Part shown: positions 18,470 through 40,044 of the stretch, piece after piece
How the letters are laid out: every line of letters begins with the position of its first letter
Position numbering within the stretch: the first letter of the stretch is position 1
Assembly: GCA_902541435.1 (NCBI GenBank)
Contig: CACBQR010000004.1
Location: forward strand, 1-42,801
Source: an uncultured Alphaproteobacteria bacterium
Lineage (GTDB): Bacteria; Pseudomonadota; Alphaproteobacteria; HIMB59; GCA-002718135
Direction: 5' to 3'
Length of the DNA stretch: 42,801 bases
Notes under the pieces: model-generated
What the model was told of the DNA's origin: nothing
What the model saw: the letters and a program-made list of their open reading frames with translations, nothing else
Databases searched by the model: none
Position numbers and translations under genes: made by a program

Positions 18470-18492
18470 TTTTCCTTAACAATTTCAATCAG

Positions 18493-18573
18493 TTAGCTAG
18501 CTTTAATCTGTATCATTTTATACCTTGTTTAAAGGTTAACATTATGTTTATATGGAAATTATATGCTAGCTAA
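18493..18573. promoter_or_regulatory. candidate promoter and paired operator of the sialic acid transport operon
   Basis: The inverted repeat TTAGCTAGC (18493-18501) and GCTAGCTAA (18565-18573) lies upstream of the binding protein gene; each arm contains the palindrome GCTAGC. Between the arms, TTAACA (18536-18541) could be a -35, with TATATG at 18560-18565 as a poor -10 at 18 bases. The second arm would then lie at the transcript start, as a repressor site does. The nature of the regulator is unknown and none is encoded in the window. Confidence 0.4.
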
Positions 18574-18601
18574 TAGTGTATTTTACTCAATAGGAGGAAA
18601 T

Positions 18602-20209
18602 ATGAAAAAACTATATGTGGTTATAGTTGCAGTGTTGGCTCATCTGATGTTCATTTCATCAGCTTCAGCACAACCTACAAACAGTAACCAATTATCCGAT
18701 CCTCGTGTTAGACAAGCTTTGTGTATGGCTATTGACATGAAAACAATCGGTGAAACATTATTTGAAGATCAAATCATAATGGCGGATAGTTTATTACCAA
18801 ACGGTCCAATGAAGTCTCCAAATCTACCTGATTACAGTTACAATCCTGAAAAGGCTCGTCAACTTTTAGCAGAAGCAAATTGGGACTCTAATAGAGAACT
18901 TGATATGGTTTTCTATTATGGAGATCAGCTAACAGCTGACTTCATGGCCGCAATTCAAGCATACTTTGCTGATGTTGGTGTTAAAATGACTTACCGTCTA
19001 TTACAAGGTGATGTGGGTGCACAACTTAATTCAGTTCCTGATGATGGTGTGAACGGACCAGCTGCTGTTGACTATGACTTAGGTTATGGTGCTCGTGCAG
19101 CAATTGCAATGCAAGAGTATTACAATACTTTTAAAACAGGTCTAAATCCACAAACTCCTGGTGATCCAAAAATGGACGCGCTAATTGAAAAAATCAATTC
19201 AAGTGCAGATCCAGAAGTTCTAAAACCTGCTTTCTTTGAAATACAAGAATATCAAATGGAGCAAGTTAACATTTGTCCATTGTACTATCAAAAATTATTC
19301 ATCTATGAGAGTAATAAAGTTGATAGAAATGGTGGAGCATATGGTAACGCTCAGTATAACTATAACTGGGGAATTACTGATTGGAACGTAAGTGGTGGTA
19401 CATTACAAACTAACACTGGTCCAGTTGAATTCTTTGAACAGCCTTGGTACAACCTTGGTTTATGGATTCACAACAAAGTTGTATTCGATAGACTATTAGT
19501 TGCTGATGGTGCGTTACAACCAGTTGGATGTTCAGCTTGTGAAAGTTATGAATTAGCTGCTGATGGTTTAAGTTTAACATTTAAACTAAAAGATGGTCTT
19601 ACTTTCCATGATGGAAACGATGTAACTGTTGAAGATGTAGCATGGAGTATTCGTACCGCTATGAAAGCACCGCAAATGCACGCTCTAATTGGAAACACAG
19701 TTGGATCAATCAAAGGTGCTGATGCATTTAAAGATGGCTCAACTGATGATGTTTCTGGTATTAAATACAATATTGCAGACAGAGTTATTACGTTAGAATT
19801 AACAAAAATTGATCCTAACATCTTAACTACTTTCACTCAATTTGCTATTTTACCTAAGCACTTATTAGGTGATGTTGATCCTTTGAAATTCCAACAAAGT
19901 GATTTCTGGCAAATGCCAATAGGATCTGGAGCATTCAAAATTACTGAAGTTAAAATGAACGACTTTGCGAAGTTCGAACCTTTTGACGGCTATCATGGCG
20001 GTAAAGCTGGTTTTGATATCATTGCTTACCCAAGTTATGATGGTGATGGTAACTTAATTAAGAATGCTGCTGCAGGAAAAATGGACTACGGATTTACCAA
20101 AAACGTAGCCGATGTTGCTGCACTAGATGCTATGGACAACATGGGAACTAAAGCTGTTGATATCCCTTATACTCGTATGATGTGGATTATGCAGTATCCA
20201 AAACCATAG
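18602..20209 (+). CDS. ABC transporter substrate-binding protein, SBP family 5, circularly permuted
   Basis: A 535-residue exported solute receptor. The ATG at 18602 has a perfect AGGAGG at 18592-18597; a longer frame from 18563 lacks support. Signal peptide 1-23 ends in ASA. Unlike DppA, OppA or SatA, the halves are swapped. Residues 30-264 are the usual C-terminal part (SDPRVRQALCMAIDMKTI, YSYNPEKARQLLAEANWD, a late ICPLYYQKLFIY strand). Residues 265-535 are the usual N-terminal part (GGTLQTNTGP, LTFKLKDGLTFHDGNDVTVEDVAWSI, FAILPKHLLG, MPIGSGAFKI, FDGYHGGKAGFDII). The protein ends in TRMMWIMQYPKP, which in ordinary family members runs directly into the DPRVRQAL block. Neighbours (permeases, ATPases, NanA, NanE, NanK) point to sialic acid or a sialoside as ligand. 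Expression signals and the signal peptide are intact, so it is not a broken gene. Confidence 0.9.
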   Translation: MKKLYVVIVAVLAHLMFISSASAQPTNSNQLSDPRVRQALCMAIDMKTIGETLFEDQIIMADSLLPNGPMKSPNLPDYSYNPEKARQLLAEANWDSNRELDMVFYYGDQLTADFMAAIQAYFADVGVKMTYRLLQGDVGAQLNSVPDDGVNGPAAVDYDLGYGARAAIAMQEYYNTFKTGLNPQTPGDPKMDALIEKINSSADPEVLKPAFFEIQEYQMEQVNICPLYYQKLFIYESNKVDRNGGAYGNAQYNYNWGITDWNVSGGTLQTNTGPVEFFEQPWYNLGLWIHNKVVFDRLLVADGALQPVGCSACESYELAADGLSLTFKLKDGLTFHDGNDVTVEDVAWSIRTAMKAPQMHALIGNTVGSIKGADAFKDGSTDDVSGIKYNIADRVITLELTKIDPNILTTFTQFAILPKHLLGDVDPLKFQQSDFWQMPIGSGAFKITEVKMNDFAKFEPFDGYHGGKAGFDIIAYPSYDGDGNLIKNAAAGKMDYGFTKNVADVAALDAMDNMGTKAVDIPYTRMMWIMQYPKP

Positions 20210-20223
20210 TTAATTTAATCATT

Positions 20224-20257
20224 AAAGCTGAGGCATACGCCTCAGCTTTCTTTTTTT
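20224..20257 (+). terminator. rho-independent terminator after the substrate-binding protein gene
   Basis: AAAGCTGAGGC (20224-20234), loop ATAC, GCCTCAGCTTT (20239-20249), then C and seven T. The 11-bp stem is perfect. It stands inside the transport operon, between the binding protein and the permeases, and would lower permease expression relative to the binding protein by partial termination. Confidence 0.92.
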
Positions 20258-20277
20258 AATAATAACGGAAAGTAAAA

Positions 20278-21243
20278 GTGACCACTTATATTATTCAACG
20301 TTTATTTATTTTCTTTCCGATGTTGCTTGTCATAAGTTTTCTTGTTTATTCAGGATTAGAATTATCACCTGGCGATGCTGTTTCACATATGATCAGTCCT
20401 GAACTCGCATCAACTATTACTGCGGAACAACTTGATGCAATGCGTGAAGCGTATGGGCTAAATCAAAGTTTCCTTACAAGATACTGGATTTGGTTAACTA
20501 GTATGGTTCAAGGAGACATGGGTTATTCTATGGCTGGTGGTGTTGCTATCTCTGAAATAATGGTAAAAACAGTTCCTGCAACTTTAGAGCTATCTATGGT
20601 AGCTTTATTTTTCTCAACAATTTTAGGTTGTTCTTTAGGAGTTATTAGTGCTCTTAAAAGAGGTTCTGGTACTGATAATTCTCTTACGGTTGCTGGAATG
20701 GCTGGAGTTTCTATACCTGAATTTTTTTTTGGACTTGTAGCTATTCTTTTATTTGCAATCGAATTAAAATGGCTTCCCGTTGGAGGTAGATTATTACCTC
20801 ATTATGAAACACTTTGGGATCGTATACCAAATATTGTTCTCCCCTCTTTAGTATTGGCATTAATGATGACTGCAGGAGCTATGCGTTATGCACGCTCATC
20901 AATGTTAGATGTTTTAGCACGAGAATTTATTACTACTGCTCGATCAAAAGGAATGCCTGAGTGGAGAGTAAATATATTACACGGATTTAGAGTAGCCCTA
21001 ACACCTGTTGTTGTACTAATTGGTTTTCGTCTACCTTTACTTATAGGGGGATCAACTATTATCGAACAAGTTTACCAATGGCCAGGAATTGGGAGTATGT
21101 TTATTCGCTCTGTGCGTGCTTCTGATTATCCTTTAGTTATGACAATTTCACTAATGTATGTTTTTGTTGTTCTTACAGCAAGTTTAATAATAGATGTTTT
21201 AACAGCGTTAATTGACCCAAGAGTTAGGTTAGGAAAAGAATAA
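20278..21243 (+). CDS. ABC transporter permease, DppB type
   Basis: A 321-residue inner-membrane permease starting with GTG at 20278, 20 bases after the terminator T-run. Six transmembrane helices. The N-terminus IIQRLFIFFPMLLVISFLVYSGLELSPGD is characteristic of DppB/OppB-like subunits. The cytoplasmic EAA loop is in TTARSKGMPEWRVNILHGFRVALTPV, and it ends in the conserved LIDVLTALIDPRVRLG. With the following permease it forms the translocation pore of a peptide/sialic-acid type ABC importer. Its stop overlaps the next start by one base (TAATG). Confidence 0.95.
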   Translation: MTTYIIQRLFIFFPMLLVISFLVYSGLELSPGDAVSHMISPELASTITAEQLDAMREAYGLNQSFLTRYWIWLTSMVQGDMGYSMAGGVAISEIMVKTVPATLELSMVALFFSTILGCSLGVISALKRGSGTDNSLTVAGMAGVSIPEFFFGLVAILLFAIELKWLPVGGRLLPHYETLWDRIPNIVLPSLVLALMMTAGAMRYARSSMLDVLAREFITTARSKGMPEWRVNILHGFRVALTPVVVLIGFRLPLLIGGSTIIEQVYQWPGIGSMFIRSVRASDYPLVMTISLMYVFVVLTASLIIDVLTALIDPRVRLGKE

Positions 21244-22157
21244 TGGCAAAGTCTTCACTAGATAAGAAATTTGATCAAATAAGAAAACGTGAAGAGGAAA
21301 AAACTTTTTCTACAAAAAAAAGAAGTAGAATAGTTAATAAATTTTTAAATAACCGTTTAGCGGTTTTAGGTTTAATCATTTTTACAATAATTATTTTAGC
21401 TTCTATTTTTGCTCCTCTTCTCTCACCATATGATCCAATGCGAGTAGATTTACGTTCTATGAGACAACCGCCATCGTTTGATCATTGGTTTGGAACAGAT
21501 AGTACAGGACGAGATGTGTTTACAAGGGTCTTATTTGGAGGCAGAGTTTCAATATTTATCGGTTTAGGAAGTGCTATTCTATCAGCTGTTGTGGGAATAG
21601 CGGTTGGTTGTTACGCTGGATATAAAGGTGGTTGGATTGATGTTATTGCTCTTAGAATTTCTGAAATATTTATGTCTTTCCCTCAAATTATTTTAGTTTT
21701 ATTACTCGTATCCATCACAGGTCAAAGTTTATTTAATTTAATGGCCATATTTATCCTTACAGGTTGGGGAGGTATGTACAGGCTTGCTCGAGCTAGAATG
21801 TTGTCTTTAAGAGAGGAAGAATATGTTCAGGCACTAAGAAGTTTTGGCTTATCTACATTTACGATATGCTACAAACATATGTTGCCGAATGCATTAAGTC
21901 CCATAATGGTCAATATTACTCTATCAACAGCAATGTTTATTTTAACAGAAGCAGGACTAAGTTTTCTAGGTTTAGGGGTACCGTTAAATATTCCTACATG
22001 GGGAAATATTTTAAATGTTGCACAAGATATTTTAATTTTACAAAACTATTGGTGGATGTGGGGACCAGTTGGAATTGTTATTTCAGTTTTTGTTCTTTGT
22101 GTTAATTTTATAGGAGATGGTCTACGAGATTCAACAGATCCATCACAGCAAGGTTAG
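21243..22157 (+). CDS. ABC transporter permease, DppC type
   Basis: A 304-residue second permease. A basic N-terminal tail of about 30 residues is followed by the first helix and the DppC hallmark LLSPYDPMRVDL, then HWFGTDSTGRDVFTRVLFGGRVSI. The EAA loop is at QALRSFGLSTFTICYKHMLPNALSPIMV, and it ends GDGLRDSTDPSQQG. It pairs with the DppB-type subunit encoded just upstream and is followed after two bases by the first ATPase gene. Confidence 0.95.
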   Translation: MAKSSLDKKFDQIRKREEEKTFSTKKRSRIVNKFLNNRLAVLGLIIFTIIILASIFAPLLSPYDPMRVDLRSMRQPPSFDHWFGTDSTGRDVFTRVLFGGRVSIFIGLGSAILSAVVGIAVGCYAGYKGGWIDVIALRISEIFMSFPQIILVLLLVSITGQSLFNLMAIFILTGWGGMYRLARARMLSLREEEYVQALRSFGLSTFTICYKHMLPNALSPIMVNITLSTAMFILTEAGLSFLGLGVPLNIPTWGNILNVAQDILILQNYWWMWGPVGIVISVFVLCVNFIGDGLRDSTDPSQQG

Positions 22158-22159
22158 TA

Positions 22160-23173
22160 ATGGAAGATAAAAATAATATAGCGCTTTCAGTTAGAGATCT
22201 TAAAACTTTTTTTTATACTAATAATCGATGCAACAAAGCAGTTAATGGAGTTTCCTTTGATGTTGAAAAAGGTAAAACACTTTGTATCGTTGGTGAAAGT
22301 GGTTGTGGTAAAAGTGTTACCGCAGCTACAATTATGCAATTACTTCCAACACTATCAAGAATTGAAGAGGGTGAAATTAAATTTCAAAAAGATAATAAAA
22401 TTATCAATATTGAAAAATTAGAAAAAAATGGAAAAGAGATGCGAGAAATTAGGGGCTCAGATATTGCAATGATATTCCAAGATCCCATGACAGCACTTAA
22501 TCCTGTGTACACAGTTGGATTTCAAATAAGTGAAAATCTTAAGTATCATACTAATCTCAATAAAAAAGAAATAAGGGAAAAGTGTATTTCTCTTCTCAAT
22601 GACATGGGCATACCACTTCCAGAAAAAAGAGTTGATGAATATCCTCACAGTTATTCTGGAGGGATGAGGCAAAGAGCAATGATAGCAATGGCCATGGCTT
22701 GTAATCCAAAAATATTAATTGCAGATGAGCCAACAACAGCTCTAGATGTTACAATTCAAGCACAAATATTTGAGCTAATGGATAAATTAAAAAAAGAAAA
22801 TGATACGGCTATTATTCTTATAACGCATGATATGGGAGTTGTAGCAGAATTAGCTGATAATGTTGCAGTCATGTATATGGGAAACATTGTTGAAGCTGGA
22901 ACAGCAGACGACGTTTTAAGACGACCAACACACCCCTATACTAAAGCTCTATTGGAGTCAGTACCTGTACTTGGAAGAGGGAAGAATCAAGATATTAATC
23001 CTATTAAAGGATCAACACCTGATCCCTACAACAGACCTATTGGTTGTCAATTTGCTCCAAGGTGCAATTGGCAAACAGAAAGTTGTGACGTGATGCCAGA
23101 AATCACACAAATAAATGAAACTCACCAAGTAAGATGTCACAAGTACGAACAATTTTTTGAGAAATATAAATGA
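22160..23173 (+). CDS. ABC transporter ATP-binding protein, DppD type
   Basis: A 337-residue ATPase of the oligopeptide/dipeptide class. Walker A GESGCGKSV, Q-loop IFQDPMTALNPV, signature YSGGMRQRAMIAMAMA, Walker B ILIADEPTTALD and H-loop ITHDMGVV are all intact. The C-terminal extension is the oligo_HPY region with spaced Cys (GCQFAPRCNWQTESCD, later VRCHKY) that can hold an Fe-S cluster in some members. It drives import by the adjacent permeases together with the next ATPase. It overlaps that gene by four bases (ATGA). Confidence 0.95.
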   Translation: MEDKNNIALSVRDLKTFFYTNNRCNKAVNGVSFDVEKGKTLCIVGESGCGKSVTAATIMQLLPTLSRIEEGEIKFQKDNKIINIEKLEKNGKEMREIRGSDIAMIFQDPMTALNPVYTVGFQISENLKYHTNLNKKEIREKCISLLNDMGIPLPEKRVDEYPHSYSGGMRQRAMIAMAMACNPKILIADEPTTALDVTIQAQIFELMDKLKKENDTAIILITHDMGVVAELADNVAVMYMGNIVEAGTADDVLRRPTHPYTKALLESVPVLGRGKNQDINPIKGSTPDPYNRPIGCQFAPRCNWQTESCDVMPEITQINETHQVRCHKYEQFFEKYK

Positions 23174-24177
23174 AAAAAGAGATACTTAAATTACGCGGTG
23201 TAAAAGTACATTTTCCAGTGCAAGCAGGTGTGTTTAATCGTGTTGTAGGACATGTTTTGGCTGTTGACGGTGTAGATTTAGATATTTTTAGAGGTGAAGT
23301 TTTAGGTCTAGCTGGAGAAAGTGGTTGTGGAAAGACAACTCTTGGTAAAGCCATCCTAAGATTGGTAGAACCTACAGATGGAGAAGTAAAATATATTTCA
23401 CAAGATGATGATGAGACAGAATTAACATCTTTAGAAAAAAAAGATATGGATCCATTTCGAAAGAAGTTACAAATAGTCTTTCAAGATCCGCACTCCTCTC
23501 TTAATCCTTCATTTACAATTTTTGGCTCACTTCAAGATCCATTAAAAAAATTTGGTATAAAATCAAAAGAGGAAAGAAGAAAAATTATTGGTGATCTCCT
23601 AGAAGCAGTAAATATGCGTAGAGAATATATGGATAGATATCCTCATGAATTTTCAGGAGGACAAAGACAAAGAATTGGTATTGTCAGAGCTTTATGTCTT
23701 GAGCCGGAACTTATAGTTTGTGATGAAGCGGTTAGTGCTCTTGATGTATCAATTCAGGCACAAGTTCTAAAATTATTAATGCAACTTAAGAAAGAAAAAA
23801 ATCTAACCTACCTTTTCATTACTCATGATTTGAGTGTAACAGAATATCTATGTGATCGAATTGCTGTTATGTATCTTGGGAGAATTGTTGAACTTTGTGA
23901 TTCTGAAGATCTATATAATAATACTCTTCACCCCTACTCTGAAGCTTTGATTTCAGCTATCCCAGTTGCAGATCTAGACAAACAAACGAAAAGAATTGTT
24001 TTGGAAGGAGATGTACCAAGTCCAGTTAATCCACCTAAAGGCTGTCCTTTTCATCCTCGGTGTCCTAAAGCAACTGACATTTGTAAAACTGAGGTACCAA
24101 CATTAAAAAAATATTCAACAAATGGTAATGAACACTATGCATCTTGCCACTTAATTGATTTACCCGAAATTAGCTAA
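23170..24177 (+). CDS. ABC transporter ATP-binding protein, DppF type
   Basis: A 335-residue second ATPase. The N-terminus LRGVKVHFPVQAG is of the DppF/OppF type. Walker A GESGCGKTT, Q-loop VFQDPHSSLNPS, signature FSGGQRQRIGIVRAL, Walker B LIVCDEAVSALD and H-loop ITHDLSV are present, with the C-terminal Cys region GCPFHPRCPKATDICK. Walker B has DEA-V-SALD where many members have DEP-x-SALD, a common variant. It ends directly before the nanA start (no gap), so transport and catabolism are transcribed together. Confidence 0.95.
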   Translation: MKKEILKLRGVKVHFPVQAGVFNRVVGHVLAVDGVDLDIFRGEVLGLAGESGCGKTTLGKAILRLVEPTDGEVKYISQDDDETELTSLEKKDMDPFRKKLQIVFQDPHSSLNPSFTIFGSLQDPLKKFGIKSKEERRKIIGDLLEAVNMRREYMDRYPHEFSGGQRQRIGIVRALCLEPELIVCDEAVSALDVSIQAQVLKLLMQLKKEKNLTYLFITHDLSVTEYLCDRIAVMYLGRIVELCDSEDLYNNTLHPYSEALISAIPVADLDKQTKRIVLEGDVPSPVNPPKGCPFHPRCPKATDICKTEVPTLKKYSTNGNEHYASCHLIDLPEIS

Positions 24178-25107
24178 ATGTCTAAATATGATCCAAAAGA
24201 TCTAAATGGTGTTATGCCTGCTATGATCACATCGATTAATAAAGATGAAACTATAAACAAGGAAGGTTTAAGAAAAATAATCAATCATTTAATAGACGAA
24301 AATGTTAATGGCTTGTACGTAACTGGTAGTACAGGTGAAACTTTTTTAATGTCACCAGAAGAAAAAAAAGAGGTGCTTGATATTATTGTTGAAGAAGTAA
24401 ATAGCAGAGTTCCTGTTATTGCGCATGTTGGATCTATTGGAACTAAAATTACAACTGATCTAGCAAAATATGCCACTCATGCTGGAGTCGACGCTTTATC
24501 AGCATTGCCACCTTTTTATTATAATTTTTCTAATGAAGAGATTTATAATTATTATAGTGACATAGCTCAATCCTCACATTTGCCAATTATTATATATAAT
24601 ATTAGTCACGCAAATTTGATGGACATTGATATGTTAAAAAGATTGGCCGCTATAGATAATATTAAAGGAGTTAAATATACGGCAGCAACTCATTTTAATT
24701 TTGAGAAAATAAAAAAAGAAATTGGAGCATATTTTAAAATTTATTCTGGTATGGATGAAATGGCTATCTCTGGTCTGATATCAGGTGCTGATGGTATGAT
24801 TGGATCATTTTATAATTTAATGCCAGAAATGTTTGTAGGAATTTTTGAAAATATAAAAAATGGTGATGTTGTTGAGGCAAAAAAATTACAAGACAAAGTC
24901 AATATGATCATTTTGTATGCATTAAAAAAATCAGGTTATCCATTTATTAAAATGGGATTAAGTTGGATGGGAATTGATTCAGGGTATGTAAGGAAACCTT
25001 TTTCAAGTATTGTCAATACAGAGATAGAAAAAGAAATAAAAGATGATTTAAAAAAATTAGTATCGGAAAATGATCTTTCAGAAATAAAATTTTTAAAAGC
25101 ATTATAA
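24178..25107 (+). CDS. nanA: N-acetylneuraminate lyase
   Basis: A 309-residue class I aldolase of the DapA superfamily that splits N-acetylneuraminate into pyruvate and N-acetylmannosamine. The carboxylate-binding motif GSTGET is at residues 50-55, Tyr140 in IIIYNI is the catalytic Tyr, and Lys166 in GVKYTAA forms the Schiff base. Long stretches match E. coli NanA: IAHVG, DALSALPPFYYNFSNEE, YSGMDE and SGADGMIGSFYN. These favour lyase over dihydrodipicolinate synthase. It sits between the importer genes and nanE, with eight bases to the next start. Confidence 0.95.
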   Translation: MSKYDPKDLNGVMPAMITSINKDETINKEGLRKIINHLIDENVNGLYVTGSTGETFLMSPEEKKEVLDIIVEEVNSRVPVIAHVGSIGTKITTDLAKYATHAGVDALSALPPFYYNFSNEEIYNYYSDIAQSSHLPIIIYNISHANLMDIDMLKRLAAIDNIKGVKYTAATHFNFEKIKKEIGAYFKIYSGMDEMAISGLISGADGMIGSFYNLMPEMFVGIFENIKNGDVVEAKKLQDKVNMIILYALKKSGYPFIKMGLSWMGIDSGYVRKPFSSIVNTEIEKEIKDDLKKLVSENDLSEIKFLKAL

Positions 25108-25115
25108 TTAACTCT

Positions 25116-25790
25116 GTGAAAAAAAATATTTTAAAAAAATTAAAAAATAAAATCATTGTATCATGTCAACCTAATGAAGGTGGGCCTCAAGACAAGACGT
25201 CTATTGTTGTTTCAATGGCAAAAGCTGCAATTATAGGAGGTTGTGGTGGTGTGCGAATTGAAGGAGAAAAAAATATACGAGCAGTCAAAAAAAATATTTC
25301 TTTACCAATAATTGGCATAATAAAAAATGACTTAGATAACTTTAAAGTTAGAATTACGCCTCTCTTAAAAGATGTCGATAAAATTATTAATAGTGGTGCA
25401 GATATAATAGCGTATGATGCTACAAATAGGAAAAGGCCTTTTTCAACAAAAGAAATTATTTTAAAAATTAAAAAAGCAAACCGTTTAGCTATGGCAGATT
25501 GCTCAAATCTAGATGATGCTAAAAATGCTATTTTAGAGGGTGCGGATATTATTGGAACAACACTTGCAGGCTATGTTGGTAAACAAGTGAAAGATACGGA
25601 TAAACCAAATATAAAATTAGTTAAAGAATTTAAAAAACTTAATTGCTTTGTAATGGCTGAAGGGCGTTACAACACTCCAGAGCTTGCAAAGCAAGCTATA
25701 CAAGAAGGAGCAGATGCAGTTACAATTGGAAGTGCTATTACGCGTATTGATAATATTACGAGTTGGTTTGTAAAAAAAATTAAAAATTAA
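25116..25790 (+). CDS. nanE: N-acetylmannosamine-6-phosphate 2-epimerase
   Basis: A 224-residue TIM-barrel epimerase converting N-acetylmannosamine 6-phosphate to N-acetylglucosamine 6-phosphate. It starts with GTG at 25116. Diagnostic segments shared with E. coli NanE are IIVSCQP, VRIEG, PIIGIIKNDL (catalytic Lys), ADIIAYDATNRKRP, MADCS, IIGTTLAGY, MAEGRYNTPE and AVTIGSAITRI. It follows nanA by eight bases and precedes nanK by one base. Length and motifs are complete. Confidence 0.96.
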   Translation: MKKNILKKLKNKIIVSCQPNEGGPQDKTSIVVSMAKAAIIGGCGGVRIEGEKNIRAVKKNISLPIIGIIKNDLDNFKVRITPLLKDVDKIINSGADIIAYDATNRKRPFSTKEIILKIKKANRLAMADCSNLDDAKNAILEGADIIGTTLAGYVGKQVKDTDKPNIKLVKEFKKLNCFVMAEGRYNTPELAKQAIQEGADAVTIGSAITRIDNITSWFVKKIKN

Positions 25791-25791
25791 A

Positions 25792-26673
25792 ATGAATAAA
25801 AAAATATTTAACAAATCAGGTATCGCAATTGATTTTGGAGCAACTAAGATATCAGTATCTCAAATAATCAAAGGAAAGTTTAAAAAAACTATTACTGAGC
25901 CAACTTCAATAAATAAAGTAGCAAATAATTACATTCAACAAATTGAAAAAAATATTAAAAACTTAAATATATCTAAATCTAAAAAAATAGGCATTGCTAT
26001 TACAGGAAGGGTTGACCAATACGGAAATTGGTACCCAGTAAATAAAGAAAATTTAGGAAATTTCAAAATACCCCTTAAAAAACTTATAGAAAAAAAATTT
26101 AATACAGCTTCTACAATAATCAATGATGCAACAGCTGCAGCTTTAGGAGAAGCAAATTATGGAAAAGGTTTTAAATACAAAAGTGTGGGATATATTACAA
26201 TTTCAAGTGGTATAGGAGTTGGTGTAATTTTAAACAATAAACCTCTTCTCTCAGAAAATGGATTAGCAGGACATTTAGGATTTACAACTTCAACGATAGC
26301 AAAAACGAAATGTGGGAGTGGTAGAATTGGAACTTTTGAAAGTATCGCTTCTGGTAAAGCAATGAGTAAAATTGCTAAACAAAAAGGTCATAAAAATATT
26401 AGTGCTAAAGAAATTTTTAAGCTTAGTTTACAAAATAAAAAATGGGCAAAAGAAATAATCGATCTATCTGCAAAATCTGTCTCAGAACTGTGTGCAAATT
26501 TGAAAGCTATATTTGATATAGATATAATTATTCTTGGTGGAAGTATTGGAATGGCACAAGGTTATGTAGAGCTCGTAAAAAAAAATTTGAAAAAAGAACC
26601 TAAATTGTTTCACGTAAAAGTAGTAAAGTCATCTCTTGGAGTAAAAGCAGCAAAAATGGGTGTTTTGCTATAA
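25792..26673 (+). CDS. nanK: N-acetylmannosamine kinase, ROK family
   Basis: A 293-residue ROK sugar kinase that would phosphorylate N-acetylmannosamine between NanA and NanE. The ATP loop is IAIDFGATKISVS (residues 11-23). The catalytic Asp is D112 in IINDATAAALGEANYG, and H161 in GLAGHLGF is the conserved metal/substrate His. The zinc motif CxCGxxGCxE is degraded: residues 174-183 read C-G-S-G-R-I-G-T-F-E, so only the first of three Cys remains (Ser176 and Thr181 replace the others). The following SIASGKAM matches NanK. The assignment rests on family plus position directly after nanE; loss of the zinc site does not exclude activity. Confidence 0.88.
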   Translation: MNKKIFNKSGIAIDFGATKISVSQIIKGKFKKTITEPTSINKVANNYIQQIEKNIKNLNISKSKKIGIAITGRVDQYGNWYPVNKENLGNFKIPLKKLIEKKFNTASTIINDATAAALGEANYGKGFKYKSVGYITISSGIGVGVILNNKPLLSENGLAGHLGFTTSTIAKTKCGSGRIGTFESIASGKAMSKIAKQKGHKNISAKEIFKLSLQNKKWAKEIIDLSAKSVSELCANLKAIFDIDIIILGGSIGMAQGYVELVKKNLKKEPKLFHVKVVKSSLGVKAAKMGVLL

Positions 26674-26697: not shown

Positions 26698-26723
26698 AAT
26701 GAAAATTGCATAGGTTAATTAAA

Positions 26724-28025
26724 ATGGGAAAAGGACAAAAATTATATTCAAAAGCAAAGCAAATTGTTGCTGGTGGTAATATGCTTTTATCAAAAAGACC
26801 TGAAATGTTTTTACCTGAACATTGGCCTGCTTATTTTACTAAAACAAGAGGTTGTGAAGTATGGGATCTTGATGGAAATAAATATATAGATACCTTAATG
26901 ATGCCAGGAACTAATTCACTTGGCTATAGTCATCCAGAAGTCGATGAAGCTGTCAAAGAAACAGTCGGAAATGGTAATATGTCCTCTCTTAATGCTCCAG
27001 AAGAAGTTGAACTCACAGAAAGATTAGTTGAGCTACATCCGTGGGCTGATATGGCTAGATTTGCAAGATCAGGAGGTGAAGCTAATTCAGTCGCTATTCG
27101 TCTTTCAAGAGCTGCATCTGGAAGAGATAATGTAGCATTTTGCGGATATCATGGCTGGCATGATTGGTACTTAGCTTCAAATTTATCTGACTCAAAAGGG
27201 TTAGATGGTCACCTGCTACCAGGTTTAGATCCTCATGGTGTACCACAAAATCTCAAAGGAAGTGTATATCCGTTTGAGTATAATAATTTTGATAAACTAG
27301 AAAACTTAGTCAAAACTAAAAATATTGGCGTTATCAAAATGGAAGTTTACCGAAACAAAGAACCAGAAAATAATTTTTTGCAACGAGTAAGAAAATTAGC
27401 AAATGATAATAATATTGTTTTAGTTTTTGATGAATGTACATCAGGATTTAGAAAAAATTATGGTGGTTTACATATGCTTTATGATGTTGAGCCTGACGTC
27501 GCAATGTTTGGAAAAGCTCTTGGAAATGGATATGCTGTAACTGCAATCCTTGGTAAAAGAGAGGTAATGCAAGCAGCAGAAAAATCTTTTATAAGTAGCA
27601 CCTTTTGGACTGAACGAATTGGATCTAGTGCTGGTCTTGCGACACTAAAAGTTATGGATAAAGAAAAATCATGGGAAAAAATTACAAAAATTGGTGAATA
27701 CGTAAATAGTGAGTGGATGAAGTTATCTAAAGAATTTGATCTTCCAATTACTATTAGTGGATTAGCGGCACTGACAACATTTTCATTTAAAAGTGAAAAT
27801 GCATTGGCCTATAAAACATTTATTACTCAAGAAATGCTTAAAAAAGGTTATCTTGCTGCAACTGCAGTCTATGTTTGTACTGCACACACAAAAGACATCA
27901 TTGATGGTTACATTGAAAATATACGCCCTATTTTTCAAACGATAAAAGAGTGTGAGGATGGAAGAAATATTATGGATGTATTAGAAGGCCCTATTGCACA
28001 TAATGGTTTTAAACGATTAAACTAA
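26724..28025 (+). CDS. class III PLP-dependent aminotransferase (glutamate-1-semialdehyde aminomutase-like)
   Basis: About 433 residues from ATG 26724 (MGKGQKLYSKAKQIV); a TTG upstream at 26706 is less likely. Fold type I PLP enzyme: ARSGGEANSVAIRL phosphate-binding region, FCGYHGWHDWYLAS, VLVFDECTSGFR (Asp contacting the PLP nitrogen) and the Schiff-base Lys in MFGKALGNGYAV. The overall pattern resembles glutamate-1-semialdehyde 2,1-aminomutase and related aminotransferases of amino-sugar gene clusters. It does not look like the haem-pathway HemL because of the unusual N-terminus and cluster context. It ends the transport-nan operon and converges with the M81 gene, overlapping it by four bases. 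Substrate unknown. Confidence 0.85.
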   Translation: MGKGQKLYSKAKQIVAGGNMLLSKRPEMFLPEHWPAYFTKTRGCEVWDLDGNKYIDTLMMPGTNSLGYSHPEVDEAVKETVGNGNMSSLNAPEEVELTERLVELHPWADMARFARSGGEANSVAIRLSRAASGRDNVAFCGYHGWHDWYLASNLSDSKGLDGHLLPGLDPHGVPQNLKGSVYPFEYNNFDKLENLVKTKNIGVIKMEVYRNKEPENNFLQRVRKLANDNNIVLVFDECTSGFRKNYGGLHMLYDVEPDVAMFGKALGNGYAVTAILGKREVMQAAEKSFISSTFWTERIGSSAGLATLKVMDKEKSWEKITKIGEYVNSEWMKLSKEFDLPITISGLAALTTFSFKSENALAYKTFITQEMLKKGYLAATAVYVCTAHTKDIIDGYIENIRPIFQTIKECEDGRNIMDVLEGPIAHNGFKRLN

Positions 28026-29509
28026 TCTAAAGATATAATTTTATTTCCAATTTTTTTAAAAGGCAATCTTTTTAAATTACTTGTGCAAAGACCTTGGCTA
28101 TCAATATAAAAACTCTGAGATGCAATTGGATCATAAGCATCTTTATGAGACACAGCTGCTTTAATTATTATTAATTTTGCATCTCTAGGATTAATACCTT
28201 GTGAAGTTAGTTGGCCTAAATCCATTGGTGGTGTTTTAATTGTTGTTAACAGTAAGGTTAATTGATCATTTTTTAATACAGCGGAAGGGCCCATATTAAT
28301 TTTTGCTCCCATCATTGAAGCTAAGTGAGATTGTTTATTTTCAAGTTCAAATCTTCCATCAGAAATTCTTTCTAAATTTGCTTTAATAAAAATAGGTTTG
28401 CCATGAAATGCATCAAATTTTGCACCTATATGTAGCTGAACTTCATTATTAATATGAGCTTTATGACAAGCATTTGCAGCTTCAGGATCATTAATGATAG
28501 CAACGATACCGGTATGATTAGTTTGTAATAATCGATCTAATAAATCAGTAGCATCTCCTGGTGTTCCTCCACCAATATTATCAGCTGGTTCAATTAGTAA
28601 AATAGGTTTTTTAATTTCTGTAATATTATCAATCACATTTAGAGCTTCATCCAGAGAATTTTCTTTTGGATAACCATCTTTAATTTTTGCTTCTAGTATA
28701 TTGACCAATTTATCTAGATAGTTTTTTGCATCACTAATTTTTCCTCTAGTACAACAATTTATACTAAAACCACAATCTGGAATATCCGCGTATGAATATC
28801 CTGCCATAACATTAATGCATAAGATCTCTGGATCTTTCTTCTCTATTTTTAGTGCTTCCTCTAAAATTGTTTTCATTGGATCATTTGCTGTACCAACACC
28901 TGTTGGAGGTAAAATATATTTTGTATCCAGATGTACTTGTTTTACATTAGGGTCTAGAAGAAGGTCATTTAATATTGATGCAGCTTTTACTGCTGTTTCT
29001 CTAGAATCACTGTGAGGGTTTTTTCTATATGCATAAACACATGTACTATACTTAATCATATTTTCTGAAACATTGGCGTGTAAATCTAAAACTGCAACAA
29101 TAGGAATAGATATATTTTCTTTTGATAAAAAACTTTGAATATCTCTGAGAAAATCTCCCTCAAAATCATCATGGTTAGTGCTTACCATAGCTCCATGTAA
29201 AACTAAGAAAATAGCATCAATGTTGTGACAAGAAACTTTTAATTTTTCAAAGAAATTTTTTTTAAAATAGTTTTCTGATTCTTCATCAACAGTACCTGAA
29301 GGTCTGGCTGACATTTGAATTCCTGGAATTACATTCCAATTTTGACCAGAAGCATATTCTATAAAACCATCTGTTGGAGATCCATTACCAGTGTTTTCAT
29401 TAATTATTTCTTCATCATGAAAAATAATAAAATCTTTTAAAGTAGTTGGTTCACCTAAAAATGTATGCGTTTCATGATATATACCTGAGAGAAAAATATT
29501 TTTAGACAT
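28022..29509 (-). CDS. M81 family metallopeptidase (MlrC-like)
   Basis: A 495-residue protein. The N-terminal metal site motifs of M81 are GIYHETHTF, LVLHGAMVSTNHDDFEGDF and VAVLDLHANVSENM. The C-terminal MlrC domain contains NIGGGTPGDATDLLDRLL and the late region MGPSAVLKN. MlrC cleaves linearised microcystin peptides, but most members are in unrelated catabolic clusters and probably act as amidohydrolases on small molecules. The aminotransferase and DapA-like neighbours suggest such a role here. It is the last gene of a five-gene minus operon and overlaps the upstream DapA-like gene by eight bases. No signal peptide. Confidence 0.9.
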   Translation of the reverse strand: MSKNIFLSGIYHETHTFLGEPTTLKDFIIFHDEEIINENTGNGSPTDGFIEYASGQNWNVIPGIQMSARPSGTVDEESENYFKKNFFEKLKVSCHNIDAIFLVLHGAMVSTNHDDFEGDFLRDIQSFLSKENISIPIVAVLDLHANVSENMIKYSTCVYAYRKNPHSDSRETAVKAASILNDLLLDPNVKQVHLDTKYILPPTGVGTANDPMKTILEEALKIEKKDPEILCINVMAGYSYADIPDCGFSINCCTRGKISDAKNYLDKLVNILEAKIKDGYPKENSLDEALNVIDNITEIKKPILLIEPADNIGGGTPGDATDLLDRLLQTNHTGIVAIINDPEAANACHKAHINNEVQLHIGAKFDAFHGKPIFIKANLERISDGRFELENKQSHLASMMGAKINMGPSAVLKNDQLTLLLTTIKTPPMDLGQLTSQGINPRDAKLIIIKAAVSHKDAYDPIASQSFYIDSQGLCTSNLKRLPFKKIGNKIISLD

Positions 29510-31342: not shown

Positions 31343-32122
31343 TTATAATTTGTTTTTTGATTTTAATTCTGCTTTTAATTGTTCTTGTTCCATTTTCTCT
31401 TTCTGCTTGTCGTGTTTTGCAGAAACACCATGATAAACAAAACCAAAAGCTCTTCGTGATCGAGTTTTAGATTTATTGGGATCAGCAAAATGAATAATTT
31501 TAGCATGGTGCATTAAAAACATTCCAGCTTTACCTTCAAACTTTACAGTATTTTTTTTATCCTCTTCAGTTCCAAAATCAGTTACTCCTTTTGAAAAACC
31601 TAAAATTTCTGATTTGCCATGTGGTCTGTATCCTTCATATTTATGTGAACCTTTAACATAATGGATACATCCATTTTCATCATCAACATCTTCAAGCGCA
31701 AGCCAACCAGTAACAGCTTTATCATTATCTAAATTAAAATAATAACCATCTTGATGAGGCGGAGTAGGATTGCTTTTACCAGGAGGTTTATTAAAGTATT
31801 CCATAGCTCTAGGTATAACATCCTCGCCTAAAGCGTTCGCAGCTAATTCTTTTATTTTACTATTGTGAAATAGATCATGAAAGAAAGCATCGTATTCTTC
31901 TAACTTTTGCATTTGCATTAAAGTATCTTTATTTTCTTTATCTACGTAATACACTTCCCCTTCTTTCATTTTAGGAACACAGTCTTTAATATATCTATCA
32001 AACTCATTATTTATAAACTCCATATCAGACTTCGAAAAAAGTTCAGGAATATGATTATAACCATTTTCATCATAAATTTTTTTTAGATCGCTTAATTCAG
32101 GGGTGTTGGTATTGAAATTCAT
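31343..32122 (-). CDS. phytanoyl-CoA dioxygenase family protein (copy 2 of a tandem pair)
   Basis: A 259-residue Fe(II)/2-oxoglutarate dioxygenase with a jelly-roll core. The metal ligands are the H-x-D of TPPHQDGYYF and a distal His in MHHAKIIHFAD. The Arg that binds 2-oxoglutarate is in the TRSRRAFGFVYHG segment. GCIHYVKGSHK is the hallmark central strand of the PhyH family. It is strongly similar to the adjacent gene (shared TPPHQDGYYF, ENGCIHYVKGSHK, TDFG-EEDKKNTV), so the pair arose by tandem duplication. The two overlap by four bases (ATGA). PhyH-family enzymes hydroxylate diverse small molecules; substrate unknown. Confidence 0.9.
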   Translation of the reverse strand: MNFNTNTPELSDLKKIYDENGYNHIPELFSKSDMEFINNEFDRYIKDCVPKMKEGEVYYVDKENKDTLMQMQKLEEYDAFFHDLFHNSKIKELAANALGEDVIPRAMEYFNKPPGKSNPTPPHQDGYYFNLDNDKAVTGWLALEDVDDENGCIHYVKGSHKYEGYRPHGKSEILGFSKGVTDFGTEEDKKNTVKFEGKAGMFLMHHAKIIHFADPNKSKTRSRRAFGFVYHGVSAKHDKQKEKMEQEQLKAELKSKNKL

Positions 32123-32883
32123 ATTAGATTTTTCTCCTTCATTTCTTTTCGAAGTTTTTCTTGATAAGCATCATGTGCTTCTTGATTTATTTCTGCACTT
32201 TCTCCATAATAAATAAATCCCAGTGCTTTTCTAGTTCTTGTTTGAGATTTATTTCCTTCAGCCCAATGTATTGTTTTAGCATTGTGAATTAAAAAAGTTC
32301 CTGGCTCTCCAGGAAAAGAGACTGTGTTCTTTTTATCTTCCTCATTTCCAAAATCAGTAATACCTTGAGAAAAACCTAATACATTGGATCTACCATGTGG
32401 CCTGTATTCAGATTTATGAGAACCTTTTACATAATGAATACATCCATTCTCTTCATCTACTTTTTCTAGAGCTAACCAACAAGTAACGGCATTATGTTTT
32501 TTTAACATAAAGTAATAACCATCCTGATGTGGTGGTGTTGGCTTTCCAATTCCTGGTGGTTTATTAAAAAATTGTAAATTTTTGGGCTCAGCTTTTTCTC
32601 GTAAAACTATTTCTGCAACTTCTCTAATAGGAGAGTTTTCAATTAATTCTTTAAAGTAATCATCATAAGTAAACATTTGCTGAAGTTGCTTTATGGAAGT
32701 TTTATCATCTTTATTTTCATAAAATATATGATGATCAGGTACATTAGGCGTAACTTCTTTAATGTATCTAGATAATTCAATCTTAATCTCTTCTATTTTA
32801 TCAATTGAAAATAATGGGTTTATTGCAATATAGCCGTTGTCATCAAATTTAGATTGAAGATCTTGATTATTAAAAGTTGTCAT
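32119..32883 (-). CDS. phytanoyl-CoA dioxygenase family protein (copy 1 of a tandem pair)
   Basis: A 254-residue paralogue of the next gene and first in the five-gene minus operon. H-x-D in TPPHQDGYYFML, distal His in IHNAKTIHWAE and 2-oxoglutarate Arg in TRTRKALGFIYYG are intact, so it should be active. The central strand ENGCIHYVKGSHKSEYRPHG is identical in pattern to its partner. The divergence between the copies is mostly in the first 80 residues, which often line the substrate entrance, so they may act on related but different substrates. It is divergent from the PanB-like operon with 96 bases between. Confidence 0.9.
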   Translation of the reverse strand: MTTFNNQDLQSKFDDNGYIAINPLFSIDKIEEIKIELSRYIKEVTPNVPDHHIFYENKDDKTSIKQLQQMFTYDDYFKELIENSPIREVAEIVLREKAEPKNLQFFNKPPGIGKPTPPHQDGYYFMLKKHNAVTCWLALEKVDEENGCIHYVKGSHKSEYRPHGRSNVLGFSQGITDFGNEEDKKNTVSFPGEPGTFLIHNAKTIHWAEGNKSQTRTRKALGFIYYGESAEINQEAHDAYQEKLRKEMKEKNLI

Positions 32884-35513: not shown

Positions 35514-36593
35514 ATGAAAATAATTGATGAAATAATTCTATACGAAAACCCTGATCCTTTACTCGTTAGTAAACAAGGTATTTTCCCTGGTATAGTGAAA
35601 TTAAAGGATAATTCCTTACTTGCATTATTTACTATTGGGCAAGCTTTTGATTCTGCTGATCAAAGAACATTTGTTTCAAAAAGTTTTGATGATGGAAGAA
35701 GTTGGTCTAAACCGAAACCTTTACATAATCATATATATAAAAATAAGGAAGAATCAGAATCTCTTAAACCACTATTATTACAAAATAATAAATTATTGGC
35801 AATAGGTTATGCTTTTGTAAGACCAGATAGTTTAACACCAATTGTTAACCCTAATACATTTGAAATACTGCCGCTCAATAATAAAATAAGTATTTCTAAC
35901 GATAATGGGGAAAGTTGGTCTATGCCAAAAAATTTTAACGTCAATAAAACACCACTTGAAATATCAGGGCCGTGTATTCAATTAAAATCAGGTAGAATAT
36001 TAGGAGCAGCGCCACCTTTCCATTTAAAAGAGTCAGATCATTCAGGATGGATAATTTATAGTGATGATGAAGGAGAAAATTGGAGTAAACTATCTGAATT
36101 TTATAAATCCAAGGAAGGGCATGTTTCAACTTGGGAATGTCGATTATGTGAAACGAACAGCAAAATTATTGTTATTTTTTGGGCTTATGACAATAAAAAT
36201 AAAAAAAATCTTAGCAACCATGTTGTAATTTCCGATGATGCTGGAAAAACATTTAATACTGTAATTGATACTAAAATCAGAGGACAAGCGTCTAATGTAA
36301 TGTTTTATAAAGATGATATAATTTTTACCATTCATTGTCACAGAGAAAACCCGACAGGATTAATTTTAAGAAAAGTTGATGTCAGAGATAATAAGTTTTC
36401 AATTTTAGATGAAATCAATTTGTTTTCTAAAGATGGTTTATCAAGTGATGATACTAATATAAGTAAACAGTTTGGCTCGCTTAAGTTTGGTCAACCATCA
36501 ATTCTTCTTTTAAATAACAATGAATTACTAATTTGTTTTTGGTGCATTCATGATAACCAACATATTATTAAAACGTATATCGTAAATATATAG
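35514..36593 (+). CDS. BNR repeat / sialidase-like protein 1, no signal peptide
   Basis: A 359-residue six-bladed propeller protein with repeated Asp boxes (S-x-D-x-G-x-x-W). They are SFDDGRSW at residues 57-64, then SNDNGESW, SDDEGENW and the degenerate SDDAGKTF. A segment after each box (SKPKPLHNH, SMPKNFN) and the start FPGIVKLKDNSLLALF match bacterial exo-alpha-sialidase domain proteins. These hydrolyse terminal sialic acid or related glycosides. The N-terminus MKIIDEIILYENPDP has no signal peptide or lipobox, so the enzyme should be cytoplasmic. The surrounding nan genes support sialoside hydrolysis, but the catalytic Tyr/Glu and Arg triad cannot be placed with certainty. It is followed by an MFS transporter after eight bases. 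Confidence 0.7.
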   Translation: MKIIDEIILYENPDPLLVSKQGIFPGIVKLKDNSLLALFTIGQAFDSADQRTFVSKSFDDGRSWSKPKPLHNHIYKNKEESESLKPLLLQNNKLLAIGYAFVRPDSLTPIVNPNTFEILPLNNKISISNDNGESWSMPKNFNVNKTPLEISGPCIQLKSGRILGAAPPFHLKESDHSGWIIYSDDEGENWSKLSEFYKSKEGHVSTWECRLCETNSKIIVIFWAYDNKNKKNLSNHVVISDDAGKTFNTVIDTKIRGQASNVMFYKDDIIFTIHCHRENPTGLILRKVDVRDNKFSILDEINLFSKDGLSSDDTNISKQFGSLKFGQPSILLLNNNELLICFWCIHDNQHIIKTYIVNI

Positions 36594-37931: not shown

Positions 37932-39050
37932 TTATTCAAATTTTAAACGTATCCAATGTAGATCCATTTTTTTATCATTACCCGCATAATAAAAAACTAA
38001 AACTTTCCCACTCTGTAAAACATCAGCATAGGGCAATCCAAAACTCCATATATTCATGTCAGCTAATAACCCTCCTAGCTCATTACTATTTTGTTTAATT
38101 TTTTTTTGATTAAAAATTGTTACCTCAGAAATTTCATCAAAATGAGCATTGAGATTATCTGATACTCTTACTTTTATGCTTTGATTTTTAAATCTATCAA
38201 CCCATGCTAACACTACCTTACCATCCTTTAATAATGCAGGATGAGAAGGTTGATCAGAAATATTTAAATCTTTTGGCTGAGACCATGTTTTACCTTCATC
38301 ATTACTTATTCTTTGATGAATATTAAGGAAAGTTTTTTTTGCCGAATCATATGTCCATGCAAAAGAAGTAATAGTTCCATTTTTATTTACACCACATCTT
38401 AAATCCCAATTAAAAATTCTTCCAGTTTCATCACCTGCTGCTAAATAAGGTTTAGACCATGTTTTTCCATTATCAGAAGAACATATGAAAATATTTTTTT
38501 GATACCATTTTGATTCATCATAATAATCTTTATTATTTTCAATACTCATAATTAATTTTCCATTTGGTAATTTCATAATAGGATTGGTAAGACTTGGTGG
38601 ACCAATGTCTTTAGGTAGCTGAACTTTTCTAAGTTTTGACCACGTATTCCCATTATCATAAGAATCTGCAATTAGAATTTTCATTGGAAGACAGCCTTCT
38701 GTATTAGCATTAAATAATTCTTTTCCTGGAATAGAAGTTCGATCGATCCACAATAATGATGCAATAATATGAGAATCAGAAATTTCAGTTAAATAGCAAA
38801 GTTTTAGACTGCCTTTAAGATTATCTATTTTAACATTTTTAAAAGGCTCCCAAGGTTCTGACCATTTCTCACCTTCATCATCTGATCGAAAAAACTCTAT
38901 TCCCTCTAATTCAGAATCTTTATTATTTCCACCTCTTGCAGTGGCAAGAATAGATCCATTACTAAGAGAAACAAATGATGAAAAAGTATAGCATGCTTTA
39001 TTTGAATCAATTTTTGAAGAACATAAGATGCCTGAAGAATCTATTTTCAT
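37932..39050 (-). CDS. BNR repeat / sialidase-like protein 2, no signal peptide
   Basis: A 372-residue propeller protein with four well-formed Asp boxes: SDDEGEKW, SYDNGNTW, SSDNGKTW and SNDEGKTW. It also has SNGSILATARGG near the N-terminus and HPALLKDGKVVLAWVDR in the last third. These are features of the exo-alpha-sialidase/BNR family. The N-terminus MKIDSSGILCSSKIDSNK lacks a signal peptide, as in the first copy, so hydrolysis is likely cytoplasmic. It is the last gene of the NagA operon, which links it to amino-sugar catabolism. It resembles the first copy only in the boxes and is not a recent duplicate. The exact glycoside is not determinable. Confidence 0.72.
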   Translation of the reverse strand: MKIDSSGILCSSKIDSNKACYTFSSFVSLSNGSILATARGGNNKDSELEGIEFFRSDDEGEKWSEPWEPFKNVKIDNLKGSLKLCYLTEISDSHIIASLLWIDRTSIPGKELFNANTEGCLPMKILIADSYDNGNTWSKLRKVQLPKDIGPPSLTNPIMKLPNGKLIMSIENNKDYYDESKWYQKNIFICSSDNGKTWSKPYLAAGDETGRIFNWDLRCGVNKNGTITSFAWTYDSAKKTFLNIHQRISNDEGKTWSQPKDLNISDQPSHPALLKDGKVVLAWVDRFKNQSIKVRVSDNLNAHFDEISEVTIFNQKKIKQNSNELGGLLADMNIWSFGLPYADVLQSGKVLVFYYAGNDKKMDLHWIRLKFE

Positions 39051-39547: not shown

Positions 39548-40044
39548 GCTCTTTTCCTTATAGTTTGTCTGCATGCTGCTTCTCCTAAAATTTCAGTTTT
39601 AATTTCGTATGGAGTATCTTCAGCCAGTGCTTCATTTGTTTTAATAGTTTGATCACAAAAGTTAGGTGAAACATTTCCAACCAACTTTCTTACATGTTCA
39701 TATGCTGTACAACGATTAACCGTTAAAATAATTTCTTCATCATTAATAGAAATATTATAATCAGCATTTTCCCGATCAAAAAAATGCTGCCAATGTTTAG
39801 CTAACATTTTGATATTCCCTTTTTTAATATGATCTTTGATATCTTTATAAACATCATTACCAACTTTTTTGAAGATATCGTTCATGGTATCGATACCATA
39901 TTTATTAATTATAAACTCAATAGTTGTATTTGTAGCACCGTGAAAATCCATGTGGACATTGCCACCATCGTTGTAACGAAGTTTTTGATTTAAATTATTT
40001 TTATTCACTTTTATATACAGATTTTCCAGCAATATAGGTTTCAC
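39544..40044 (-). CDS. small Cys-containing protein resembling L-2-amino-thiazoline-4-carboxylic acid hydrolase (copy A)
   Basis: About 166 residues from the GTG at 40044, which has a GGAG five bases upstream. It overlaps the end of nagA by 44 bases. A second GTG at 40008 would overlap by only eight bases but lacks a ribosome site. The conserved-looking N-terminal segment NDGGNVHMDFHGATNTTIEFI precedes an alpha-helical region. A Cys-rich beta region follows (VNRCTAYEHV, SPNFCDQTI, ILGEAACRQTI). The pattern of a Cys in the first strand, C-D-x-T in the middle and a final A-C-R-x-T-I resembles ATC hydrolases. Copies A and B are only distantly similar to each other and may form a heteromer. Confidence 0.5.
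   Translation of the reverse strand: MKPILLENLYIKVNKNNLNQKLRYNDGGNVHMDFHGATNTTIEFIINKYGIDTMNDIFKKVGNDVYKDIKDHIKKGNIKMLAKHWQHFFDRENADYNISINDEEIILTVNRCTAYEHVRKLVGNVSPNFCDQTIKTNEALAEDTPYEIKTEILGEAACRQTIRKRA

Follow-up and report, generated by a model that had tools for sequence, protein, structure and literature searches.

A probable naturally circularly permuted family 5 binding protein encoded beside sialic-acid catabolic genes in an uncultured alphaproteobacterium

Among the binding proteins of ABC importers, natural circular permutation is known from one, TpMglB-2 (Tp0684) of Treponema pallidum, and the accessible parts of its description report a crystal structure, ligand binding and a conformational change (PMC4990184). 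The authors considered the topology hitherto unknown for the class and, as far as those parts go, proposed cluster Bc to accommodate this Type I (cluster B) glucose-binding lipoprotein (PMC4990184). In cluster C, the accessible text on AccA assigns residues 29-280 and 494-521 to lobe 1 and residues 285-489 to lobe 2, with two short hinge segments, so that both termini lie in lobe 1 (PMC4526662). Termini in the same lobe were the basis on which the original prediction, made from the DNA analysed here, had held a permutation of such a protein to be feasible, and for AccA that premise is true. SatA of Haemophilus ducreyi (PDB 5z99, 5za4) is described, in the portion of the article available, as a sialic-acid binding protein with a two-strand hinge (PMC11364026).

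The gene considered here lies in a 42,801-nucleotide stretch of DNA (the window) from an uncultured alphaproteobacterium (GTDB lineage HIMB59; GCA-002718135). It very probably encodes a functional, naturally circularly permuted family 5 (cluster C) binding protein, referred to below as cpSBP. Like TpMglB-2, cpSBP would be a natural permutant serving an ABC importer, and it differs from the T. pallidum protein, as known from the accessible text, in its family and in the position of the cut. The literature search, which left most subscription papers outside its reach, found no natural circular permutant of family 5 among the matches listed. The claim that none had been described thus holds within that search, TpMglB-2 belonging to another cluster.

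Exchanged order of the PF00496 blocks

The open reading frame at 18602-20209 encodes a product of 535 residues, and the coordinates and blocks quoted in the original prediction agree with the sequence. PF00496 (SBP_bac_5) was the sole Pfam family found across the whole protein by hmmscan (E up to 0.001), which sets cpSBP apart from the cluster B (Type I) sugar-binding family, and the score of the whole product, 168.4 bits, compares with a gathering cut-off of 32.4. The blocks stand in exchanged order, as had been claimed: residues 27-136 correspond to profile positions 209-326, and residues 313-527, which follow, correspond to positions 7-204. The gene and its signals are laid out as follows.

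18592-18597, plus strand: Shine-Dalgarno AGGAGG, 4 nt 5' of the ATG at 18602 (sequence; GGAGGAAATATG kept in 4/4 relatives compared)
18602-18670, plus strand: putative signal peptide, residues 1-23, with an ASA/Q cleavage motif (read by eye; similar N-terminus in 6 aligned rows)
18671-19297, plus strand: residues 24-232, the former C-terminal part (lobe II), which now comes first, profile 209-326 (profile matches; lobe limits estimated by alignment)
19298-19387, plus strand: residues 233-262, presumed second hinge plus the tail of lobe I that was formerly C-terminal (alignment; AccA lobe limits from the accessible text of PMC4526662)
19385-19399, plus strand: junction at which the old ends are fused, near residues 262-266, WNV/SGG (rotation scan optimum; alignment)
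19388-20206, plus strand: residues 263-535, the former N-terminal part (lobe I), which now comes last, profile 7-204, with the new C-terminus YPKP after hinge strand 1 (profile matches, alignment)
20224-20249, plus strand: stem-loop with an 11-bp stem and a T run after it, in the intergenic region separating the SBP and permease genes (folding)

Scored alone against PF00496, the old C-terminal half reached 73.3 bits and the old N-terminal half 98.6 bits. A search of the window's own genome recovered the two halves as separate matches within a single open frame, at 18680-19009 for profile 209-326 and at 19538-20188 for profile 7-206, and the remaining six matches in that genome were all single. 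None of the canonical blocks is absent from cpSBP and none is duplicated. The canonical order was absent from the window and from all full copies fetched for the order check, and the swapped order marks the protein as a permuted variant of SBP_bac_5 rather than an ordinary member. Thus cpSBP is a family 5 protein by profile, descent and operon, yet it lacks the canonical block order. The GC content of 18602-20206 is 37%, compared with 30% for the window, and is similar in the two parts (0.376 and 0.372).

The permutation was evaluated further with a canonical profile built from 29 family 5 proteins, treated as canonical and drawn from loci of the window's own genome, the genus, the class and the phylum. 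The mature protein was scored in its native order, after rotation at residue 262, and after 25 other rotations at 20-residue spacing. The native order matched in two pieces, of 109.9 bits (profile 86-318) and 98.4 bits (profile 324-546), leaving just profile positions 319-323 unmatched between them, whereas the rotated order gave a single match of 218.8 bits over positions 87-546; the profile comparison that the original prediction had proposed thus came out in its favor. The best single piece, 218-219 bits, was obtained only with cuts at residues 244-284, which is where the old termini are joined, and cuts within 20-50 residues of the native ends gave a best piece of about 101-123 bits. The old ends had been predicted to be fused, and the rotation optimum indeed falls at a near linker-free junction, DWNV/SGGTLQ.

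Proteins of solved structure behaved similarly. AppA matched the rotated order in one piece at 82.0 bits and the native order in two pieces at 76.3 bits, and the corresponding values for DppA were 59.6 and 52.9 bits; for 8upi, the best PDB match, rotation gained almost nothing (83.9 vs 83 bits). DppA, AppA and AccA carry the same blocks as cpSBP, which aligns with them in one piece once rotated, but their order is canonical. SatA, which we take to belong to family 5, likewise matches the rotated cpSBP by sequence (36.6 bits) but has the canonical order, and by score it is not the nearest relative. Among outside ORFs in which both halves were significant, the order was canonical in 16 of 16, several of these being near-identical to one another; 16 more outside lines matched one half alone and are uninformative on order.

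The expression signals that had been described as intact are conserved. The AGGAGG lies at 18592-18597, and the N-terminus, read by eye, has a hydrophobic stretch and the ASA/Q motif of a putative signal peptide. The stem-loop recurs at the equivalent place in all 8 intergenic regions folded (the window and 7 relatives), and the stem sequences of the hairpin within 20210-20277 vary among relatives with pairing retained. Terminator-like hairpins as such occur at chance level, with 1 found and 1.1 expected. Since the T run is short in two relatives (L055, L063) and absent in two others (L057, L058), the hairpin may be an RNA-stabilizing or partial-termination element.

The operon and the candidate ligand

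The genes that follow cpSBP were assigned as below.

20278-21243, plus strand: permB, a DppB/Opp4B-like permease (profile search)
21243-22157, plus strand: permC, a DppC/Opp4C-like permease (profile search)
22160-23173, plus strand: atpD, an ABC ATPase with oligo_HPY (profile search)
23170-24177, plus strand: atpF, an ABC ATPase with oligo_HPY (profile search)
24178-25107, plus strand: nanA-like N-acetylneuraminate lyase (NF003164 291.4 bits, cut-off 281; TIGR00683 253.6 bits, below its cut-off of 382)
25116-25790, plus strand: nanE (passes its subfamily model)
25792-26673, plus strand: ROK kinase, nanK-like (below NCBIfam cut-offs)
26706-28025, plus strand: class-III aminotransferase (profile search, locus comparison)

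The operon order is therefore cpSBP-permB-permC-atpD-atpF-nanA-nanE-nanK-aminotransferase. As expected of an SBP_bac_5 gene, cpSBP adjoins DppB/DppC-type permease genes and two oligo_HPY ATPase genes, and, as expected of a sialic-acid ABC importer, the operon includes sialic-acid catabolic genes, nanE and nanK not being universal. On named contigs we found 28 loci, which overlap with the genome set described below; 24 of them span at least 532 of the 535 residues and 4 are cut by contig ends. The order from cpSBP to nanA is identical in 25 of the 28, the other 3 stopping sooner, which answers the suggestion that permuted homologues be sought beside nan genes. The nanE and nanK genes (25116-26673) resemble an optional cassette: both are missing in L055, L058 and L063, where the aminotransferase gene follows nanA, and nanK alone is missing in L043. 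A gene for an M81/MlrC-like metallopeptidase (28022-29509) adjoins the operon and was also present in L141 and, by eye, in L058.

Several steps of transport can be proposed from these assignments. The protein would be exported by Sec, adopt the usual two-lobed fold around a ligand cleft, and act as the receptor of an Opp4-like ABC importer, passing its ligand to permB and permC, with atpD and atpF driving uptake. Sialic acid or a derivative would then be broken down by NanA, together with NanE and NanK where these are present. We regard sialic acid or a close derivative as the probable ligand, and the neighboring genes point to N-acetylneuraminate. Plasmid nan clusters of Deinococcus, which share the partner genes of cpSBP, support a sialic-acid-type substrate. 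Across the 102 genomes of the genus, a NanE match above 200 bits occurs in 24 of the 26 genomes that carry the permuted gene and in 3 of the 76 that do not, an association confined to one genus, whose genomes are not independent. Among these 3 non-carriers, the contig of G095 stops inside nanE of this same operon, and G056 and G094 have nanE and nanK in another amino-sugar cluster, as do the carriers G006 and G065; in the carrier G004, the NanE copy and the permuted gene are on different contigs. No NanE above 200 bits was found in the carriers G005 and G008 (64% and 61% complete).

It is possible that the importer instead handles another ligand, such as another keto-acid sugar, an amino sugar or a peptide, a reading that concerns the ligand only and is compatible with a functional permuted binding protein. 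The three operons without nanE and nanK and the one without nanK would be in keeping with another ligand, as would the missing NanE in G005 and G008, the scores of NanA under the TIGR00683 cut-off and of NanK under the NCBIfam cut-offs, and the occurrence of other Opp4A-like relatives beside peptidases. On the other hand, NanA passes NF003164, NanE is encoded elsewhere in G004, G006 and G065, and the Deinococcus nan clusters with the same partner genes adjoin a gene annotated as N-acetylneuraminate epimerase. The literature search found no report of sialic-acid uptake in this clade among the matches listed, and the accessible part of PMC10308909 makes no mention of sialic, neuramin, NanA or oligopeptide.

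Elsewhere in the window, two BNR-repeat genes at 35514-36593 and 37932-39050, which we take to be sialidase-like, flank an MFS transporter gene near nagA (40001-41179). Two tandem PhyH-like dioxygenase genes, one recognized by profile and the other by eye, lie at 31343-32883.

Descent, distribution and selection

Canonical SBPs of Deinococcus ficus (WP_027463875.1) and D. psychrotolerans (WP_124875354.1), found by tblastn in a plasmid collection, are Opp4A-like proteins of nan clusters and are among the closest canonical relatives found. They share 24-25% identity with the rotated cpSBP over 471 aligned residues, and the two score 110.1 and 105.7 bits against it. Genes near the Deinococcus SBPs are annotated as N-acetylneuraminate epimerase and a GntR regulator, and 3' of them lie genes for a permease, opp4C, a DHDPS-family aldolase, an N-acetylmannosamine-6-phosphate 2-epimerase and a ROK protein. 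Their clusters thus have permB, permC, nanA-like, nanE and ROK kinase genes in common with the cpSBP operon, and D. psychrotolerans alone has both ATPases as well. Unlike in the cpSBP operon, the SBPs have the canonical block order and the ATPase genes lie downstream of the nan genes. The highest score against the rotated cpSBP, 141.0 bits at 26% identity, belongs to a plasmid-encoded SBP of Cytobacillus oceanisediminis (WP_192909026.1), which also adjoins Opp4-type permeases but has the canonical order and peptidase neighbors instead of nan genes.

In a 37-row tree of rotated permuted and canonical proteins, the permuted clade grouped with the Deinococcus pair and L122 with support of 98/89, a value that includes L122, a Neorhizobium sequence whose frame is broken at the block; L122 was in the first whole and half trees and was dropped from the later half trees. 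An alternative to the permutation of one gene is a chimera that took its two lobes from separate family 5 genes. When L122 was kept in the half trees, lobe I was placed with Deinococcus at weak support (77/61), and lobe II came out beyond the Opp4A-like rows (85/95); this placement of lobe II elsewhere, with the weak resolution of the half trees, speaks for such a chimera. Once the frame-broken L122 was removed, however, both halves fell inside one and the same Opp4A-like group, made up of 11 of the 25 rows (95/95 for lobe I and 80/81 for lobe II); pairing with Deinococcus was then weak for lobe I (69/32) and for lobe II was not recovered and not rejected (AU p 0.357). In the permease tree, the operon belongs to the corresponding larger group (83/80), and this agreement, together with the shared Opp4A-like group of the two halves, favors a single permuted gene over a chimera.

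Profile scores bear on the same point. The best NCBIfam models differ between the halves, TIGR04028 (51.8 bits) ranking over Opp4A (40.2 bits) for the lobe II half alone, and for many relatives the two halves give uneven scores. Nevertheless, the Cytobacillus SBP has the highest score on both lobe II (64.1 bits) and the rotated whole and the fourth highest on lobe I (71.8 bits; best 82.8), no canonical block is absent or doubled, and the seam is gapless in the alignment. A chimeric origin is thus improbable, and the preferred history is that a single permutation of one Opp4A-like gene preceded the divergence of the operon in the genus. Tandem duplication with later trimming, proposed earlier as the origin, may have been the route. 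No second copy or remnant of the gene was detected when each half was searched by tblastn (E up to 1) in the window and 9 relatives, the gene itself alone being matched, and a repeat search of 18470-20280 found nothing beyond direct repeats of 12-16 nt.

A full-length permuted gene is present in 24 of the 102 genomes of the genus, the window's own included, at 80-100% identity and with the permuted order in all 24, and contig-end pieces occur in 2 further genomes. The remaining genomes among the 102 searched had no copy at E up to 1e-13, and no permuted gene was found in 8 other genomes of the family. The neighboring permB, at E up to 1e-75, was found in the same 26 genomes of the genus that carry cpSBP, which is present as pieces in 2 of them. 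In a search of 385 genomes of the class, 16 matched at E up to 1e-13, namely 2 members of the genus that have the whole gene and 14 others with a match over one part; among 398 genomes of the phylum, 5 matched at E up to 1e-18, namely the window's own genome and 4 over one part. Both of these searches scored the 3 best candidates per genome, so weaker or unusual relatives may be missed. One genome with a contig-end piece (G066; L132) also has a separate canonical family 5 SBP gene adjoining its own permease and ATPase genes.

Another explanation is that cpSBP is a degenerate or repurposed protein that is no longer the transporter's receptor. The branch from the permuted clade to the canonical relatives is long (2.16 changes per column), and a hinge asparagine frequent in relatives is methionine in cpSBP according to the alignment, both of which would fit such a change of role. 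Yet dN/dS was 0.044-0.143 in 21 of 21 pairs drawn from 7 sequences, the 24 full copies contain no internal stop, and the permease is present in 26 of 26 carriers and adjoins the gene in the loci inspected. Loss of the receptor function is accordingly very unlikely. The sequence-based case for a functional gene made in the original prediction is strengthened by these dN/dS values, by the conserved expression signals and operon and by the intact partner genes. Although the window's genome is an incomplete assembly of 65 contigs (74.91% complete), the notion that an ordinary gene was scrambled in one assembly or chimeric contig can be dismissed, given divergent full-length orthologues down to 80% identity in 24 genomes and in named contigs of several projects, fixed synteny, and purifying selection across the fusion segment (dN/dS of 0.08 and 0.03 in the two of three comparisons for which it could be computed).

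The two parts of the gene appear to change at different rates. The lobe II part (18671-19297) is slower than the lobe I part (19457-20206), with dN of 0.025 vs 0.111 in the comparison with L056 and 0.099 vs 0.189 with L058, dS being roughly similar. L056, whose lobe II part is near-identical to that of the window, was considered as a recombination mosaic, and this was rejected; since dS is similar in its two parts (0.57 and 0.72) and mainly dN differs, slower change of lobe II fits better.

Position of the cut and its implications

Where in the fold was the chain opened? In the relatives, a strand with a conserved terminal asparagine is followed by a P-F-D-x-x-V-R-Q-A helix, and we place this strand at the AccA hinge, residues 281-284. 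When the new ends of cpSBP are joined with residues 24-30 omitted, ...WIMQYPKP continues into LSDPRVRQAL opposite ...SYNVQKKP/LDDVKVRQAL of DppA, with a two-residue gap before the seam, and against the Deinococcus proteins the seam is gapless. These alignments agree with the earlier claim that the new ends lie at a single point of the fold. The new termini would directly adjoin hinge strand 1, on the side toward lobe II, at P275/L276 of DppA as counted from the chain numbering of the alignment. With the cut just past the first inter-lobe hinge strand, each lobe would form one continuous stretch, lobe II from residue 31 to about 232 and lobe I from about 233 to 530. AccA differs in that its lobe 1 is split around lobe 2, as the accessible text has it, whereas lobe I of cpSBP would be continuous by alignment.

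By this alignment, lobe II and lobe I would be consecutive stretches joined through one continuous hinge strand, and the second hinge strand would be the protein's own C-terminus, docked across the cleft. A tentative proposal is that this un-nested cluster C fold, in which one hinge is covalent and the other is a free C-terminal strand, alters opening and closing kinetics and thereby affinity, an effect for which an oligotrophic marine lineage may have retained it. Two AlphaFold runs on 21-row alignments gave mean pLDDT values of 44.9 and 51.1 and pTM values of 0.40 and 0.44; scans of the viral_contigs collection for alignment depth yielded six distinct relatives in total. A PDB fold search with the second, low-confidence model returned proteins of the family 5 / cluster C type, one part at a time, over about 183-264 columns and with TM of 0.23-0.30 among the 50 matches listed.

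Engineers permute binding proteins to make sensors. In cpSBP, selection has maintained a permuted member of the large family 5 group beside its own transporter, and the protein would extend natural permutation from cluster B, represented by TpMglB-2, to a second cluster of binding proteins. It offers a scaffold with termini apparently at the hinge, and a natural test of whether Venus-flytrap binding needs two covalent hinge strands. Such block swaps stay hidden when annotation rests on the family score alone.
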